Part shown: piece after piece, positions 24,173 through 32,420 of the stretch
Layout: each line of letters opens with the position of its first letter
Position numbering within the stretch: position 1 is the stretch's first letter
From: Pseudomonadota bacterium
GTDB lineage: Bacteria; Pseudomonadota; Gammaproteobacteria; Steroidobacterales; JBCBZW01
NCBI GenBank assembly: GCA_039193195.1
Contig: JBCCWS010000001.1
Location: 195,338 to 259,337, forward strand
Reading direction: 5' to 3'
Length of the DNA stretch: 64,000 nt
The notes under the pieces: model-generated
Databases searched by the model: none
Seen by the model: the letters and a program-made list of their open reading frames with translations, nothing else
Told to the model about the DNA's origin: nothing
Program-made: the position numbers and the translations under genes

Positions 24173-25018
24173 GTGGAGGACGACCCCGACTTTCGCCTGG
24201 CCCGAGATGCCTACGCGCGCACCCTCGCCATCGGCGGCGCTCAGCGCGAACGCTTACCCACCGCCGCTTTGGAGGCCCTCGCGGGCGATGTGGTCTCCCT
24301 GCTCGCGAGCCGCTTGCGCGACGCGCCACCCGAGGGAGACGCCCCGGGCACCCCTTCCCCAGCGGCCTTTGACGCTTTCGTACGCGCCCTGTTGGACTCC
24401 GATGCACACCGCGCGGCGGACCACATCGATGGCGCCCGCGCGATGGGCGCCGGCGTGGAGGCAATCTACCTAGGGTACCTGGCCCGTGCGGCGCGACACC
24501 TCGGTGCCCTATGGGATCGCGATCGCATCGACTTCGTACAGGTCACCGTGGCCATCGGGTGCCTCTACGCCATCATGCGCAGCCTGCGCCAAAGCCTGCC
24601 CGCCGTGCGCCACCAGGACCCGTGGCGCCACGCCCTGTTCATCACCATGCCTGGGGATGATCATCGTCTGGGCGCGGCAATCGCCGCAGATCTCTTTCGC
24701 GCCCAGGGGTGGGACATTCAGTTGGAAGGACCAGCGGATCGCGCAGCTGCCGTGACGATACTGATGGGCAGCGATCACAGCGTGGTGGGGATATCGGCAA
24801 GCCGCAATGCGCAGTTGAGCGAATTGATTCGCTTGGTGAGCGCCCTGCGCATCTGCCGCCCTGAGGCGTTCATTGTGGTGAGCGGCCATATCGTGGAGGA
24901 GATGCAGGATCTCCAGGAGCTGGTCGATGCGGATGCCGTGGTGGGCAGCGCGCCGAGCGCCATCGAGCGGCTAGAAGAGCTCATCGCGAATCAGCGCCGA
25001 ACGGCCCGCGGGCGCTAG
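24173..25018 (+). CDS. Cobalamin-binding-domain protein, AerR/PpaA-like
   Basis: 281 residues with a GTG start. A helical domain (about 65-145; LGALWDRDRIDFVQVTVAIG at 110-129) is followed by a Rossmann B12-binding domain with the base-off motif DxHxxG, seen as DDHRLG (162-167); H164 would be the lower cobalt ligand. The wording of the helical part resembles the AerR/PpaA regulators of purple bacteria, which use B12 to sense light and antagonise a repressor. No photosynthesis genes or PpsR-like repressor are in the window. It has no methyltransferase or mutase domain, so a sensor role is more likely than an enzyme. Confidence 0.8.
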   Translation: MEDDPDFRLARDAYARTLAIGGAQRERLPTAALEALAGDVVSLLASRLRDAPPEGDAPGTPSPAAFDAFVRALLDSDAHRAADHIDGARAMGAGVEAIYLGYLARAARHLGALWDRDRIDFVQVTVAIGCLYAIMRSLRQSLPAVRHQDPWRHALFITMPGDDHRLGAAIAADLFRAQGWDIQLEGPADRAAAVTILMGSDHSVVGISASRNAQLSELIRLVSALRICRPEAFIVVSGHIVEEMQDLQELVDADAVVGSAPSAIERLEELIANQRRTARGR

Positions 25019-26274: not shown

Positions 26275-27318
26275 ATGATCGAGTTCACCGCTCGCTACTT
26301 CGCCGGCGACCGTCCTCGGGCTGAGGACGTGGTCGTGCGTGTCGATGAGAAGCGCAAGCAGTTGACGATCACCGGCACGTGCTTCATCCAGTCATTTCCC
26401 CTCGAGAGGCTGCGGATGGAGAGCCGTCTGGGCGATACGCCGCGCATCCTCGAGTTGCCCGCGGGTGGTCGTCTGGAGTCCTCTGATCATCGGGTCCTTT
26501 CGCAGTTGGAAGATACGTTGGGTGATCGCGGCGGCTGGCTGCATGCACTGGAGTCGCAGCGCGGTCCTGTGATCTTGTCCTTGGCGAGCGTGATGCTGAT
26601 GCTGGCCGGCGTTATCTGGCAGGGCCTGCCCGCTCTGGCGTGGGCCGCATCGGAGCTGATCCCACCTTCCTACGACCAACAGATTGGCCGTGCAGCCCTG
26701 ACGTTTTTGGATCGCGAGTGGCTCTCGCCTAGTGCGCTGCCCGAGGAGGAGACGGCCCGCATCCGTGGGCTCTTCGACGAGGTGGTGGCGTACTCGGGGC
26801 AGTCGCGCTCCATGGGACTGCTATTTCGTGCCGGACACCCCGCGCACGAGCAGGAGGGCATCGGTGCTAACGCCCTGGCCTTGCCCTCCGGCATCGTGGT
26901 GATCACAGATGAGCTGGTCACCTTGGCGGTGTCGGAAGATGAGCTCGTCGGCGTCTTGGCGCACGAGGTGGGTCACGTGGTCCATCGCCACAGCCTGCGG
27001 CGGGTCATCCAGAGCGCCGGCATCACCGTGCTTGTGTGGGTGCTCACTGGCGATGCTGCCGGCATGAACGTGCTTGTGGAGAGCGCGCCTGCGGTGCTCG
27101 CCAATGCGGCGTACTCACGCCGTTTTGAGGCTGCTGCAGATGATTTCGCCAGTGCCTACCTGCGCACGACCGGACGCGATCCCCGTGCATTGGGTACCTT
27201 GTTACTGCGACTTGAAGCGCTCACGGGCGGGGCCGGCACGGGCTACCTCGCCACCCATCCGCCGGCTGCGCGGAGGGCGGAGCGATCCTTGGAGCTTGCC
27301 CCGCGCGAAGCGCCCTGA
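26275..27318 (+). CDS. M48-family membrane metallopeptidase
   Basis: 347 residues with a zinc-protease site HEVGH (230-234) and the third ligand E285 in RRFEAAADDFA (282-292). The N-terminal region (1-90) is soluble and all-beta-like; a membrane segment at about 98-127 follows, so the peptidase domain (about 135-340) is probably periplasmic. The ALPSGIVVITDELV stretch before the HExxH is typical of M48. It is paired with the DUF898 gene and follows it by 5 bases; the partner could be its substrate or anchor. Confidence 0.9.
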   Translation: MIEFTARYFAGDRPRAEDVVVRVDEKRKQLTITGTCFIQSFPLERLRMESRLGDTPRILELPAGGRLESSDHRVLSQLEDTLGDRGGWLHALESQRGPVILSLASVMLMLAGVIWQGLPALAWAASELIPPSYDQQIGRAALTFLDREWLSPSALPEEETARIRGLFDEVVAYSGQSRSMGLLFRAGHPAHEQEGIGANALALPSGIVVITDELVTLAVSEDELVGVLAHEVGHVVHRHSLRRVIQSAGITVLVWVLTGDAAGMNVLVESAPAVLANAAYSRRFEAAADDFASAYLRTTGRDPRALGTLLLRLEALTGGAGTGYLATHPPAARRAERSLELAPREAP

Positions 27319-27369
27319 GCCTCATGTGCTCGTCGCACCGGGTGGGCCCCTACACGCTAAGCTGGTGCC

Positions 27370-28401
27370 ATGGCTAGCGATGTGCTCGACCAACTCGCCC
27401 TGATCGCGATTGGTACCACTTGGTTCAGTGCCCTGGTGCTATCCCTCGGCCACTTGTCATCCGAGCTGTACGCGGAGCGACCTTGGGCGAGGCGCTTCGG
27501 GCTTGCGCTGCTGCTCAACCTAAGCGTGCTGCAAGGGATGCACTACTGGGCGTTGGTCGGCGAGCTGCACGTCTGGTCATCCTCGCTCTACATCGCCAGC
27601 ATCTTTTGCACGGGCGCCCTGTTCTTCTTCTTCTGCCGCGCCGTGCTGCGCTTCGAGCAACCCCTCCCCCGGTGGGCGTGGGCCGCCCTGATGCCGCCTC
27701 TGATCGGGGCCGTCGCACCGGGCCAGATCATGTTCTTCGTCGCCTTCGTGATCGGCGCTGGGTACTTTCTGGCGATCGGGGCCCAGCTATTCGTGCTTCG
27801 CAGCCAACGGCGACGCTTCGCCGCGGAACTCACCGCGCTGGTCGCCCTATTCATCATCTCTGGGATGACCCTGCTGTTGGGGCTGCTGCTGCCGTGGATC
27901 GAAGAGCATGTGTACGTGTCTGTATTCGCCATTCTCAATGGCCTGAGCTTCGTGCCAGCCTTGCTGTTGGCGGTGCGCTACCCGGACCTTCTCAATCGCG
28001 CCGAAGAGGCGTTGGTGCTGGCCGAGGCCAACTCGACCCTGCGCAAGGTGGACGTGGCCAGCAAGCGACGCGAACTCGATCGCCTGATGGGCGAGGAGCA
28101 CTTGTATCGAGACGAGACGCTGAACCTGGCGGCCTTGGCGGATCAACTGCAGCTCTCCTCGCACCAGACCTCCGAGCTCCTCAACCAACACGTAGGCATG
28201 GGCTTTGCGCGCTACCTGCGCAAGCACCGGGTGGCCGATGCCTGCCAGGCCTTGCTTGCGCAGCCACGTGAGTCCGTGCTGTCGATCGGTCTCAACGCCG
28301 GCTTTTCCTCCCAGTCAACCTTCTATACCGCCTTTAAGCAGGAGACCGGTCTCTCCCCCGGTCAGTACCGAAAGACCCCCCAGGACTCACCCACAGGTTG
28401 A
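27370..28401 (+). CDS. Membrane-embedded AraC-type transcriptional regulator
   Basis: 343 residues. The first 205 residues contain about six or seven membrane helices (for example ALFFFFCRAVL and LTALVALFIISGMTLLLGLL), followed by a charged linker and an AraC/XylS DNA-binding domain (about 245-338; ending GFSSQSTFYTAFKQETGLSP). Regulators anchored like this can sense a membrane or external signal and act directly on DNA. The start is ATG 27370. It is followed by an AT-rich promoter-like spot and then the membrane SRPBCC and desaturase genes, its likely targets. Confidence 0.87.
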   Translation: MASDVLDQLALIAIGTTWFSALVLSLGHLSSELYAERPWARRFGLALLLNLSVLQGMHYWALVGELHVWSSSLYIASIFCTGALFFFFCRAVLRFEQPLPRWAWAALMPPLIGAVAPGQIMFFVAFVIGAGYFLAIGAQLFVLRSQRRRFAAELTALVALFIISGMTLLLGLLLPWIEEHVYVSVFAILNGLSFVPALLLAVRYPDLLNRAEEALVLAEANSTLRKVDVASKRRELDRLMGEEHLYRDETLNLAALADQLQLSSHQTSELLNQHVGMGFARYLRKHRVADACQALLAQPRESVLSIGLNAGFSSQSTFYTAFKQETGLSPGQYRKTPQDSPTG

Positions 28402-28418
28402 GTATCCAGACTTCCCTC

Positions 28419-28470
28419 TTATATTCCTGGAAGTTCCTTAATTATTGTTTTAAAAAGATATTTAGGAAGA
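28419..28470 (+). promoter_or_regulatory. AT-rich promoter-like island
   Basis: A stretch rich in A/T (TTATATTCCT, then TTAATTATTGTTTTAAAAAG, then ATATTTAGG) inside otherwise GC-rich DNA, between the AraC-type gene and the membrane SRPBCC gene. TTCCTT and GATATT, 17 bases apart, are possible -35/-10 hexamers. A small hairpin GATGC/GCATC follows at 28469-28483. This is a likely promoter and regulator binding site. Confidence 0.45.
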
Positions 28471-28555
28471 TGCATCTCGCATCGCAAGGTCGGAAGACCC
28501 GAGCTGCAGGCACCGGTTGGAATGCGCCCTGGCTTGCCATTACCGGGTCCTCAGC

Positions 28556-29530
28556 GTGGAATCCTCAAACGACGATAGGGGGCGTGCGAGCGCCCCCACA
28601 CCCAGTGCGCGCCTCGCGCGCCTGCGCCATCCAACGGCTACCGCCGTGCTTGTACTCACCATTCTCAGCGCCGGGCTGATCATATTGCTCTGGCGAATCC
28701 GTATCGGCGATAGCGCGATGCTGTACGTCGGCGTGCCCTACGTGATCGCAGTTGCCTTGTTGGTGTTCGCCCGCAACCCGCGGACCCACGGCCTCAAGGC
28801 GACCTACGGTTGGCTAGTGCGCACGTCCCTCTGGATCTTGTTCTCCACTGCCTTAGTCTTGCAGGAAGGGTTCATCTGCGTGCTCTTCTTCATCCCCATT
28901 TACCTGCTCGTCATCACCGCTGCATACGGACTCATCCGCTGGGTGTCGAGCGTGCGTTCCCGCGAGCGCCGCCTGCGCGCATGCTTGCTGCCGTCGCTAC
29001 TGCTTCTGAGTGCTCTCGAAGGCGTGACGCCAGTGCTCACGGTGCCCACCCACGCCGTCGTGGCGGCTACTAGGGTCGTGCGGGTGACGCCCGAAGAGAT
29101 TCGCACCAACCTTGCAAACCCGCCGTCGATCGATACCAGTGCGAACCTGGTGCTGGCGCTGTTCCCGATGCCCTACGCGGTGGAGACGGGCGATCTGAGC
29201 GTTGGGGCGATCCATCGCGCGCACTATCGCTACCACCGCTGGTTCTTCACCAACACGCACGAGGGCACGACCACCCTGCGCATCGCCGAGTCGACACCCA
29301 CGCGCCTCGCGGCGCAGGTGATCTGGGACAGCAGCTACCTAGCCAAGTATCTGGCGGTGCATGAGGTGGTCCTCGAGATGGTGCCCCGTGCTGACGGGCG
29401 CACGGCCGTGACGATCGCCGTGGACTTCGATCGCAAGCTGAGCCCGGCCTGGTACTTCAGTCCTCTCGAGGCCTACGCCGTGCGCCGGATGGCGAACCAC
29501 CTGATTCAAGAGGTGCTGGCCGATGGCTAG
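28556..29530 (+). CDS. Membrane protein with SRPBCC-like C-terminal domain
   Basis: About 324 residues. Five hydrophobic helices occupy roughly residues 25-170 (for example VLVLTILSAGLIILLW and VLFFIPIYLLVITAAYGLI). The rest (about 180-324) is soluble and patterned like an SRPBCC/START-type cavity fold: VVRVTPEEIRTNLA at its start, FPMPYAVETGDLSVGAIHR, a strand-rich middle, and a long final helix (FSPLEAYAVRRMANHLIQEV). SRPBCC domains bind lipids or other hydrophobic ligands. Start uncertain: GTG 28556 or TTG 28517. It overlaps the desaturase start by 8 bases, so the two are coupled. Fold assignment is by pattern only. Confidence 0.65.
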   Translation: MESSNDDRGRASAPTPSARLARLRHPTATAVLVLTILSAGLIILLWRIRIGDSAMLYVGVPYVIAVALLVFARNPRTHGLKATYGWLVRTSLWILFSTALVLQEGFICVLFFIPIYLLVITAAYGLIRWVSSVRSRERRLRACLLPSLLLLSALEGVTPVLTVPTHAVVAATRVVRVTPEEIRTNLANPPSIDTSANLVLALFPMPYAVETGDLSVGAIHRAHYRYHRWFFTNTHEGTTTLRIAESTPTRLAAQVIWDSSYLAKYLAVHEVVLEMVPRADGRTAVTIAVDFDRKLSPAWYFSPLEAYAVRRMANHLIQEVLADG

Positions 29531-30479
29531 GGGGAGAATGCACGGCTCGGGTGCGAATGCGCGTGATGCCAGGGTGAAATGGGCACTGGGTCAGTCTCTG
29601 TGGGTCACCGCGATGGTGCTACTCGCTCTGGTCGGCGGCTACCTTACGATCAGTGCGAGCGCGCTGTTGGTGTTCCTGCTCACGACGGCGCTCACCCTGT
29701 GCTTTGGGCACTCTCTCGGCATGCATCGCCTGCTCATCCATCGTAGCTATGAGACTCATCAAGTCACCGAGTACCTGCTCGTTTGGTTGGGCACGCTCGT
29801 GGGCCTAGCAGGACCAAGAGGACTACTCTACACGCACGACCTGCGCGACTGGGCCCAGCGCCAGGGCAGGTGCCACGATTTCTTTGCGCATCGAAGAGGG
29901 ATGCTCCAGGACGCTTGGTGGCAGCTGCACTGCAGGGTCGAGCTCGATCGGCCGCCGATCTTCCGCCTGGAGCGGCGCATCCACGAGGATCCGATCTATC
30001 GGTGGCTGGAGCGCACCTGGATGGCTCAGCAGCTGAGCCCCGCGCTCCTGCTCTATCTGGGTGGAGGCCTGCCCTGGGTGATCTGGGGCGTATGCGTGAG
30101 GGTGAGCGTGTCGATGATCGGGCATTGGTGGGTGGGTTACTTCGCCCACAACGACGGCCATCGACCTCGCCACCTTGCCGGCGCGGCCGTACAGGGGACC
30201 AACCTGGCGAGGTGGTGTGGGCTAATTACGATGGGTGAGAGTTGGCACAACAATCATCACGCGTTTCCCGAGTCCGCGCGGATCGGGCTCGAGCCCACAG
30301 AGTGGGATCCGGGATGGTGGTGCCTGCGCTTGATGCGCGCGTGCGGCCTGGCGTGGTCCTTGCGCGAGTTCTCCCCCGGCGACCCGGTCAGTCCGCGTTC
30401 AGCACGGCCAGCAGGTGCTGTGATTCCTCGGGGCAATCGCACTCTGCGATCGCCTGCGCCTGGGCGCGCACCTGGGTAA
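29523..30479 (+). CDS. Fatty acid (acyl-CoA/acyl-lipid) desaturase
   Basis: 318 residues, membrane-bound di-iron desaturase. Box 1 is HSLGMHR (63-69) and box 3 is ESWHNNHH (239-246). The usual HRxHH second box is replaced by THDLRDWAQRQGRCHDF (104-120), with H105 and H118 in place of clustered histidines; FFAHRRG (120-126) follows. I believe this is a recognised sub-type, but it is unlike the standard delta-9 enzymes. Several membrane helices flank the boxes. The last 30 or so residues are read antisense to the end of ptsI: the genes overlap tail-to-tail by 92 bases. Confidence 0.85.
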   Translation: MARGRMHGSGANARDARVKWALGQSLWVTAMVLLALVGGYLTISASALLVFLLTTALTLCFGHSLGMHRLLIHRSYETHQVTEYLLVWLGTLVGLAGPRGLLYTHDLRDWAQRQGRCHDFFAHRRGMLQDAWWQLHCRVELDRPPIFRLERRIHEDPIYRWLERTWMAQQLSPALLLYLGGGLPWVIWGVCVRVSVSMIGHWWVGYFAHNDGHRPRHLAGAAVQGTNLARWCGLITMGESWHNNHHAFPESARIGLEPTEWDPGWWCLRLMRACGLAWSLREFSPGDPVSPRSARPAGAVIPRGNRTLRSPAPGRAPG

Positions 30480-32139
30480 CGTTGGTCTCCGCCACGATGC
30501 ACTTCACCTCCGGGATCGCGGTTGGGCTCATGCTGAAGTGTGTGAGCCCAAGGCCCAGCAGCAAGCGGGTGAAGCGCGGGTCTCCAGCCATCTCGCCGCA
30601 CAGGGCGACGGGTGTGCCCACGGCGGCACCCGCGGCCAAGGTGTCACGGATGAGGCGCAGCACCGCGGGGTGGGCGGGTTCGTAGAGGGACTGTACGGCA
30701 TCGTCATCACGGTCGATTGCCAACGTGTACTGAATGAGATCGTTAGTGCCGATGGAGAGGAAGGCGGCTTCGCGGGCGAGGGTGCGAGCGCACATGGCCG
30801 CTGCGGGAACCTCGATCATGACGCCGACGGGGACGTCCTGCTCGTGGGTCACGCCCTCCCGGTCTAAGGCCTCGCGACAGTCGTCGATGAAGGCCAGGGC
30901 CGCGCGCAACTCGGCAGGGGTGGCGATCATCGGCAGCAGGATGCGCAGCGGGCCATGGCGGGCCGCACGAAGGAGCGCGCGAATCTGGGGCGCGAACAGC
31001 TCCGGGTGCTGAAGGCACAGGCGTATGGCACGCAAGCCCAGGGCCGGCTGGCTGGTTCGGGGAAGGTGCTTGGACAGGGAGCGCAGCTGGGGGCCGGCGC
31101 AGGCATCGAGCGTGCGGATGGTCACCGTGCTGCCGCCCATGCCTTGGACCAGCAGGCGGTAGCTGTTGTAGTGCTCCTCTTCGCTGGGCAGGTCGTCGCG
31201 GTTGGCGTAGAGAAACTCTGTACGGTAAAGGCCGACGCCGTCGACCTGGAGGCGCCGAGAGGCAGTGAGATCCCCCGGGCCGCGCACGTTGGACATGATC
31301 TCCACGGCGATCCGATCGCGCGTGGCCACGGGGCCAGCGAGGGCCGGCGCGCTCTGCAGGGAGCGTTTACGCCGCTGCTCCAGCTGCTGGCGCTCGCGGT
31401 AGGTGACGAGCGCGTGGGGGTCGGGATCGGTGATCACTAGACCGGAAGCGCCGTCTACGATGACTAGCTGATCAGGCTGTAGCGTACAGGTCGCATCGGC
31501 GAGGCCGGCCACGTAGGGCAGGCCCAAGCTACGCGCCACGATCGTGGTGTGCGATAGCTGGCCTCCGCGTTCGGAGATGAGGCCTGTTAAGGTGCCACTT
31601 CGCGGTAGCAACAGGTCCGTGGGCGCCGGATCCGCGCACACCAACACGTAGGCAGCCAGGTCGCCGGTCTCCTGTGCAGGAGAGGCATCGGCGCCCGTGT
31701 CGCGTTGGGTACTGAGCATCGTCAGAACCTTGCCGAACAGGCTTTCAAGGTCGTCCCGGCGAGCGGCAAGGTAAGGGTCGTCGATCTGCTCTAGGGCGTC
31801 CAACACCTCCTCTTCGTGGGTGAGGAGCGCCTCCTCGGCGGTGCACTGACGCGCGCCGATGAGCGAACGGATCGGCTCGGCGAAGGCCTCATCTTCCAAG
31901 ATATGGCGATGGCCGTCGACGATGGCTCGCACTTCCAGGGGCCAAGCGCGCGCGTGCTGATCGGCCGCCTGGAAGCTAGCCACCACCTGGCGGATGGCGT
32001 GATCGAGGCGGTCGCGTTCTTGCGCCGGCGCGAGGGCCGCGCCGAAGTTGGCGGTGCGCGCCGCTAGGGCGCTCTCGAGGCGTACGCGGGCGATCACGAT
32101 ACCGCTGGAGACGCCGGTGCCGAGGACGGTGACACTCAT
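30388..32139 (-). CDS. ptsI: Phosphoenolpyruvate-protein phosphotransferase (EI)
   Basis: Enzyme I of the PTS: takes phosphate from PEP onto H197 (GGQLSHTTIVARS, 192-204) and passes it to HPr. 583 residues with the N-terminal HPr-binding domain, swivelling phosphohistidine domain and C-terminal PEP-binding barrel (VALCGEMAGDPRF carries the catalytic cysteine). There is no N-terminal GAF domain, so it is PtsI-like rather than PtsP. The ATG at 32139 overlaps the HPr stop (ATGA). No sugar permease is nearby; with ptsN, rapZ and rpoN it forms a regulatory PTS. Confidence 0.93.
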   Translation of the reverse strand: MSVTVLGTGVSSGIVIARVRLESALAARTANFGAALAPAQERDRLDHAIRQVVASFQAADQHARAWPLEVRAIVDGHRHILEDEAFAEPIRSLIGARQCTAEEALLTHEEEVLDALEQIDDPYLAARRDDLESLFGKVLTMLSTQRDTGADASPAQETGDLAAYVLVCADPAPTDLLLPRSGTLTGLISERGGQLSHTTIVARSLGLPYVAGLADATCTLQPDQLVIVDGASGLVITDPDPHALVTYRERQQLEQRRKRSLQSAPALAGPVATRDRIAVEIMSNVRGPGDLTASRRLQVDGVGLYRTEFLYANRDDLPSEEEHYNSYRLLVQGMGGSTVTIRTLDACAGPQLRSLSKHLPRTSQPALGLRAIRLCLQHPELFAPQIRALLRAARHGPLRILLPMIATPAELRAALAFIDDCREALDREGVTHEQDVPVGVMIEVPAAAMCARTLAREAAFLSIGTNDLIQYTLAIDRDDDAVQSLYEPAHPAVLRLIRDTLAAGAAVGTPVALCGEMAGDPRFTRLLLGLGLTHFSMSPTAIPEVKCIVAETNVTQVRAQAQAIAECDCPEESQHLLAVLNAD

Positions 32140-32420
32140 TCGTGAGAGCCCACTTGCGTGGTGCGCAGGATCTGGCAAATGCGCTCCACCGTCGGCTGGC
32201 AGGGCTGCTCACCTTCGGCGGTGATCTCGATTTCCGCGCCCTGGGTCGCCGCTAGCATCATCAGGCTTAGGACGCTGGTGGCGCTGGCGCTGCGCCCCAT
32301 GTAGTGCAGCGTGATCGTGCTGCCTTCGGCGTCTCGCGCGGCCTCGGCGATGGCGCTAGAGGGGCGCATGTGCAACCCGCGGGGATCACTGACGACCACA
32401 CTGCGTACGACGACGGCCAT
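32136..32420 (-). CDS. ptsH: HPr-family phosphocarrier protein
   Basis: 94-residue phosphocarrier. The phosphorylated histidine is H17 in RGLHMRPS (14-21). The region SASATSVLSLMML (44-56) is the second HPr signature, with S49 in the position of the regulatory serine of other HPr proteins. It relays phosphate from EI to EIIA-Ntr (PtsN). The gene is upstream of and overlaps ptsI, and follows rapZ by 72 bases. NPr (ptsO) is an alternative name in organisms with a pure nitrogen-related PTS. Confidence 0.93.
   Translation of the reverse strand: MAVVVRSVVVSDPRGLHMRPSSAIAEAARDAEGSTITLHYMGRSASATSVLSLMMLAATQGAEIEITAEGEQPCQPTVERICQILRTTQVGSHE

Follow-up and report, generated by a model that had tools for sequence, protein, structure and literature searches.

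A desaturase-fold protein with an altered second histidine box, its SRPBCC membrane partner and a membrane AraC-type regulator: a candidate lipid-modifying locus of a gammaproteobacterium

Membrane lipid desaturases hold their di-iron centre with a conserved set of eight histidines (PMC8960569, PMC9825965). In stearoyl-CoA desaturase SCD1 the metal ligands include His120, His125 and His269, and the active site of desaturases lies on the cytoplasmic side of the membrane (PMC9825965). According to PMC8960569, the proteins PEDS1/TMEM189, CarF and plant FAD4 (pfam10520) carry eight conserved histidines that are "somewhat differently arranged" from the classical motif. As for regulation, a two-component membrane-state switch controls the desaturase of Bacillus subtilis (PMC9825965). 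Here we describe a locus that combines a desaturase-type protein with a membrane-embedded regulator and a membrane protein of a different kind. It lies in a window of 64,000 nt (the whole stretch of DNA that was analyzed; positions 195,338-259,337 of contig JBCCWS010000001.1, assembly GCA_039193195.1) from a gammaproteobacterium of the order Steroidobacterales. Three consecutive plus-strand genes were distinguished: (i) ARA (27370-28401; 343 aa), encoding a membrane-anchored AraC-type regulator, (ii) MID (28556-29530; 324 aa), encoding a five-helix membrane protein with a C-terminal SRPBCC/helix-grip domain, and (iii) DES (29523-30479; 318 aa), encoding a membrane protein with the stearoyl-CoA desaturase fold. 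We give an even chance to the reading that this is a regulated lipid-modifying unit, in which MID would be the periplasmic lipid-binding partner of DES.

The three genes and the overlap of MID with DES, as given in the initial annotation, were confirmed by the open reading frame (ORF) coordinates, in which the MID and DES frames share 8 bases, and by the signs of purifying selection. Compared with the single same-genus genome G001, the dN/dS values (NG86) are ~0.11 for ARA, ~0.20 for MID and ~0.18 for residues 1-121 of DES, which indicates purifying selection, as in real genes. The MID frame also opens at a TTG codon (28517-29530; 337 aa), and the GTG at 28556 is the likelier start. The domain assignments made at that stage (membrane AraC protein, five-helix SRPBCC protein and desaturase) were upheld by the Pfam HTH_18 match, the predicted models and the fold matches.

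The sole Pfam family listed for DES is FA_desaturase, with 29.4 bits against a cut-off of 29.7, so the gathering score is not reached. The predicted model (mean pLDDT 81.9) aligns with SCD1 (4ymk) at Z 21.0 over 275 residues (3.7 A), and the values of 20.4-21.0 obtained for 4ymk, 4zyo and 6wf2 place DES within the SCD1-type fold. Of 398 genomes from the window's phylum, 18 encode a DES subfamily member at E up to 1e-40. For residue comparisons, 46 subfamily sequences from 44 loci, gathered by subfamily profiles, were set against 25 of the lower-scoring matches of the DES genome search, those with a retrieved locus; part of the invariance reported below is an effect of this profile-based selection, and it is the contrast with the comparison set that defines the subfamily.

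DES shares with SCD1 and the bacterial FA_desaturase enzymes the predicted fold and the first and third histidine boxes. The first box (HxxxxH; H68 and H73) is present in 46/46 sequences and is extended by a further invariant histidine to H63-x4-H68-x4-H73 (29709-29741), whereas position 63 is occupied by V, I or T in all 25 comparison desaturases. The third box (HNNHH; 30246-30260) is canonical, with H242, H245 and H246 in every subfamily member; H209 is kept in 45/46. Unlike in the known enzymes, the second box (HxxHH) is absent at its place from 46/46 DES sequences, while the comparison desaturases read HRxHH without exception (25/25). All 46 read H[DE].RD[WY]..C there, and the altered box of the window spans H105-D-L-R-D-W-A-Q-R-Q-x-x-C117-H118-x4-H123 (29835-29891). 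One HxxHH occurs elsewhere, at position 232 of the DES of locus L081 (L, G and C numbers denote loci, genomes and contigs). Other residues are new to the subfamily: H63 and H201 (30123-30125) are found in 46/46 DES and in 0/25 comparison desaturases, and C117 is likewise invariant; H123 is present in 44/46, but also in 6/25 of the comparison set. Altogether, at least eight histidines are kept in each of the 46 sequences. Judged from these alignments, the altered second box is the most telling feature of the locus, and it was overlooked in the initial annotation.

The exact register of the altered box depends on the alignment. In the gapless register (MAFFT), H105 falls on the first box-2 histidine and R108-D109 on the histidine pair (HDxRD vs HRxHH); H73 and H105 are then 32 residues apart, presumably the same distance as between boxes 1 and 2 of SCD1. 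The hhalign program shifts the box by nine residues, which brings Q114, C117 and H118 to the ligand places (QxxCH); H118 is replaced by proline in 7/46 sequences, and a histidine stands at position 111 in 7/46. Under either alignment, no more than one of the three box-2 histidines is left in DES. A precedent by analogy for eight histidines arranged otherwise is provided by PEDS1 and FAD4 (PMC8960569): DES resembles them in keeping at least eight conserved histidines, but in another arrangement, and it is set apart from PEDS1/CarF/FAD4 by its different Pfam family. A subfamily that has lost at least two histidines and gained others offers a natural test of which ligands such a site can spare.

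Subfamily members are recorded as 'acyl-CoA desaturase', and this, like the close match to the SCD1 structure, would suit an ordinary extra fatty acid desaturase adjusting membrane fluidity, next to which MID would be an unrelated, travelling membrane protein. We consider this improbable, as the second box is altered in the whole subfamily, and the pairing with MID described below, which extends over two bacterial classes and to remote MID relatives (loci L087 and L119), is hard to explain by hitch-hiking.

Two variants of DES were noted. A branch of six loci (L119, L121-L125; group f236 genomes) reads RDWHQRQxxCPPHPSH, the box being changed further by a proline at position 118 and a histidine at position 111. 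Two of these loci, L124 and L125 (genomes G588 and G612), carry two tandem, diverged copies of the DES subfamily with an ArsR gene in front.

MID scored above cut-off with none of the Pfam or NCBIfam families, and the PDB gave no match to its sequence. Its AlphaFold2 model, based on an alignment with 14 relatives (mean pLDDT 84.1), contains five predicted membrane helices (residues 26-47, 54-71, 80-102, 106-132 and 136-152), followed by a single strand, further helices, a run of six strands and, at 298-322, a long terminal helix. The membrane part (residues 26-152; 28631-29011) bears an invariant EGF.C motif; the other segments conserved among the 15 aligned MIDs are an EG ending helix five, YHRWF.TNTHEG and L.PAWYF.P. 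Residues 163-324 (29042-29527) of the predicted model match the cyclase StfQ (4xrt) with a VIA-align Z of 14.3 (140 residues, 2.6 A), and Z values of about 13 were obtained with PYL receptors, PR-10 proteins and bacterial members (Foldseek, VIA-align). The helix-grip, with its long C-terminal helix over a curved sheet, assigns this domain to the SRPBCC/Bet v1-like proteins; structure prediction thus bore out the proposal that the soluble part of the middle protein folds as SRPBCC, although the shared fold by itself reveals no ligand. MID differs from SRPBCC, Polyketide_cyc2 and Bet v1-like proteins in the fusion to five membrane helices, in the suggested periplasmic location of the domain and in matching no family over cut-off. 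Two remote relatives come close to the Polyketide_cyc2 cut-off of 27.4 bits: L119 just reaches it (27.4) and L087 scores 27.0.

The mean number of lysines and arginines in the 15 MIDs is 3.7 for the N-terminus, 0.4, 1.4, 0.0 and 3.5 for loops 1-4, and 0.9 in the segment following helix five. For a five-helix protein, such a distribution places the N-terminus inside and the SRPBCC domain outside according to the positive-inside rule, and suggests that the domain faces the periplasm. It bears directly on a mechanism proposed earlier, in which the SRPBCC domain lies in the cytoplasm and MID, as a substrate-delivery subunit, would offer the acyl substrate to DES or sense it. The fold and the tight, often overlapping pairing of the genes would fit such a direct physical partner, but the charges argue for a C-terminal domain on the side opposite to the cytoplasmic active site of the desaturase. 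The SRPBCC domain being likely across the membrane from the DES active site, this mechanism is weakened and probably needs change; in its original form we think it unlikely.

The pairing of MID with DES was followed across genomes by a MID search made without reference to DES. Matches turned up in 5 of 59 related genomes and in 9 of 369 from the window's class, 7 of these nine being strong, and a public genome collection contributed 14 loci. Each locus being counted once, 22 distinct strong-MID loci were obtained; L071 and L077 were left out as duplicates of L059 and L070, and so were the weak partial matches in G407 and G222. DES lies within one gene of MID in 19 of the 22 loci (one DES, in L078, is truncated), in both Alpha- and Gammaproteobacteria, and the gene linkage proposed initially thus holds across two classes. 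In 15 loci, namely that of the window, L057, L059-L062, L065-L068, L070, L072, L076, L078 and L079, MID precedes DES, and in 13 of these the genes overlap or are at most 2 bases apart. The order is reversed in four (L058, L063, L069 and L073), and in two of them, from Thiotrichaceae (L058 and L069), an ArsR gene stands between DES and MID. Among the 369 genomes of the class, strong MID is present in 7 and DES in 10, with both side by side in 5.

Remote MID relatives extend this picture: one, recorded as 'SRPBCC family protein', follows DES on a Novosphingobium plasmid (L087), and another overlaps DES in G609 (L119). A plasmid search with the window MID at E 1e-5 gave no copies, though the relative of L087 does sit on a plasmid. 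Mapped onto the DES tree, the strong-MID label changes 9 times, at least 8 of the changes being forced by well-supported branches, which implies a pairing that is either old or repeated. MID as a marker of one DES clade was considered and rejected by the same tree. The recurrence of the pair in distant bacteria, together with its position behind a membrane-anchored regulator in the window, suggests a lipid-modifying unit. Conservation of the complete three-gene set, also expected at first, held in part: the MID/DES pair recurs, but ARA heads just 5/22 MID loci, plus one DES locus lacking MID.

Residues 256-335 of ARA match HTH_18 (73.6 bits, cut-off 33.6) and HTH_AraC (50.8 bits) in Pfam, and this AraC-type DNA-binding domain makes ARA a member of the AraC/XylS regulators. 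It departs from them in its membrane-embedded N-terminal part, ~210 residues with six to seven hydrophobic stretches (hydropathy) that gave no Pfam match, and in its neighbors, which are MID/DES or SDR, DUF2269 and DUF4166 genes. Membrane-AraC fusions occur in many genomes. Homologues of the ARA membrane domain precede MID/DES in L059, L060, L066 and L078 (the last from G001) and DES without MID in L081 (G200). Among 339 genomes of the window's class the domain was found in 10 (E up to 1e-6): three have MID and/or DES adjoining (G000, G007 and G200), four an epimerase-like SDR and DUF4166 (G300, G235, G131 and G274, with DUF2269 as well in the last three), and three none of these genes (G059, G312 and G360). 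Of these neighbors, SDR (L139, L140 and L142), DUF4166 (L139 and L142) and DUF2269 (L142 and L143) were confirmed by Pfam, and the remaining assignments rest on small profiles. Six of the 10 genomes (G000, G007, G059, G200, G300 and G312) are also among the 10 DES genomes, the draws of 339 and 369 genomes not necessarily coinciding.

The DUF genes recur beside both ARA and MID. An ARA-type regulator precedes SDR and DUF4166 in L139, L140, L142 and L143 (with DUF2269 in the last three). The SDR/DUF4166/DUF2269 set also accompanies MID in L075, and DUF4166 accompanies it in L067. The window's own genome gave no DUF4166 match and no DUF2269 match, the DUF2269 profile being silent in control genomes too.

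ARA is one of three regulator kinds accompanying MID/DES, a point overlooked in the initial annotation. With an ArsR profile built from four genes (L074, L116, L117 and L120), 45 DES loci (the 44 and L078) were surveyed: 16 have an ArsR-type gene adjoining DES or the pair, 6 have ARA, one has a GbsR/MarR-type gene there, and 22 have none of these. The 19 MID-DES loci divide into ARA (5), ArsR (4), GbsR (1) and nine, L057, L061, L063, L065, L068, L070, L073, L076 and L079, with none of the three kinds in the stretch read, several of these stretches being short or cut by a contig end. In L087 and L090 the ArsR gene is recorded as 'metalloregulator ArsR/SmtB family'. The MID/DES pair therefore occurs with several regulator kinds, which also adjoin other membrane genes. 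Two MID loci without DES illustrate this: the neighbors are an ArsR gene, a DCC1-like gene and PEMT in L074, and a GbsR-type gene with DCC1-like, SDR, DUF2269, DUF4166 and PEMT genes in L075. The PEMT-type membrane methyltransferases, which stand behind MID in both (Pfam), may represent an alternative partner enzyme. In L060 a PlsC-like acyltransferase (assigned by eye) stands behind DES, and such lipid-type neighbors favor a lipid-modifying role of the pair.

These DES-less loci also fit a role of MID as a membrane-state sensor serving the regulator and not the enzyme, its pocket reading a lipid or some hydrophobic compound of foreign origin, with the signal passed to ARA, ArsR or GbsR; the open MID behind ARA and next to the broken DES of G001 points the same way. 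We give this explanation little credence, because MID mostly adjoins DES whatever the regulator type, and nine of the 19 MID-DES loci lack all three kinds in the stretch read.

The reading of the locus as a regulated lipid-modifying unit leads to the following picture. DES would be a membrane di-metal enzyme with a desaturase fold and rearranged histidine ligands; working from the cytoplasmic side, it would oxidize acyl chains or some other kind of lipid tail. MID would be anchored in the inner membrane by its five helices with the SRPBCC pocket on the periplasmic side. The hydrophobic ligand of this pocket would most likely be the modified lipid or its precursor, which MID may hand on or hold at the outer leaflet. 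ARA would turn the pair on in response to the state of the membrane. The lipid theme proposed for the three genes at the outset was thus right in outline, the SRPBCC fold and the MID/DES linkage both supporting a lipid module. A more tentative extension, which we rate as possible and somewhat doubtful, is that the DES proteins are membrane di-metal lipid oxidases of a class of their own, with H63, H201 and perhaps an aspartate or cysteine taking over from two replaced box-2 histidines. MID would then represent an inner-membrane family whose periplasmic SRPBCC domain serves a DES-type enzyme, either carrying the product away from the inner membrane or retaining it at the outer leaflet. A partner with a lipid-pocket fold, perhaps across the membrane, would link the making of a lipid with its moving or sensing.

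The components of the desaturase switch in B. subtilis are DesK and DesR. The window locus is like them in its proposed role alone, that of a membrane-embedded sensor before a desaturase, and is unlike them in having a one-component AraC protein; neither a histidine kinase nor a response regulator domain is among the Pfam matches of ARA, MID and DES. Each of the building blocks (desaturase fold, SRPBCC fold and AraC domain) is already known, and their combination and the altered box were not met among the literature matches listed: no title or abstract start among the open-access matches listed describes the MID/DES/ARA set or the box, most subscription papers lying outside this scope. The regulators (membrane AraC, ArsR and GbsR types) and the DUF4166, DUF2269 and SDR neighbors provide several entry points in cultured bacteria. 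Cultured carriers of the MID/DES pair include Leucothrix pacifica JCM 18388 and Hirschia maritima DSM 19733.

A number of observations weigh against a MID/DES lipid-modifying unit under ARA control. With at least two box-2 histidines gone, the activity of DES cannot be assumed. The counterpart of the window DES in G001 is shorter by ~450 bases net, the loss starting near residue 121 and taking in the third histidine box (503 window bases are without counterpart, against 49 in G001); the truncated gene (L078, 4629-5075, contig C125) breaks off there, and the loss extends to the ptsI tail. The same genome keeps MID and ARA open beside the broken gene and has a second, intact DES on another contig (C53; L080). 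DES is missing from the stretch read around MID in three of the 22 loci (L064 of Sulfitobacter algicola, L074 of G254 and L075 of G356), and 26 of the 46 DES have no MID adjoining, so neither gene requires the other at the same locus. Even close relatives may differ, as L073 has MID and L082 lacks it (0.04 each at the tips of the DES tree). In favor of the unit, the distances of adjacent MIDs and DES correlate (Mantel r 0.36 over 17 pairs, a value reached in 6 of 9999 permutations), but this figure is without correction for species descent. The periplasmic placement of the SRPBCC domain comes from the charge rule and not from measurement, and helices 1 and 3 of MID, as cut, hold 1.6 K+R each, some at the loop-1 end, which makes the first hairpin less clear than loop 4.

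Two further points of this kind concern the intergenic stretch between ARA and MID (28402-28555, plus strand), a possible promoter. It was described initially as an AT-rich, promoter-like spot. The AT richness is real, since the 60-base peak of AT content for the whole 64 kb window falls within 28412-28478, but the run is not kept in the alignment with G001, and the promoter-like TTGAGT-16-TATATT within it is not beyond chance (1 found in 27200-30700 vs 0.5 expected). Nor did an operator emerge from nine ARA-headed stretches: the best 8-, 9- and 10-mers recur in 6, 4 and 4 stretches, not clearly above 30 shuffles (up to 7, 5 and 4), and the candidates were therefore rejected. One motif, GGARGWYC, has two sites in the intergenic stretch of the window and, at corresponding places, in G001; it was discarded, as it occurs 17 times in the window (both strands) and is absent on the strand read in L059, L060, L066 and L081.

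Downstream, the locus is bordered by a convergent ptsI-like ORF (30388-32178, minus strand; named by eye), which overlaps the 3' end of DES by 92 bases. The genes upstream of ARA encode a B12-binding protein, a DUF898 protein and an M48 peptidase (Pfam). The B12-binding protein (24173-25018), three genes upstream of ARA, matches B12-binding (47.1 bits) and B12-binding_2 (32.2 bits), with a weak AppA_SCHIC match and without a DNA-binding match, and is possibly a light or redox sensor.

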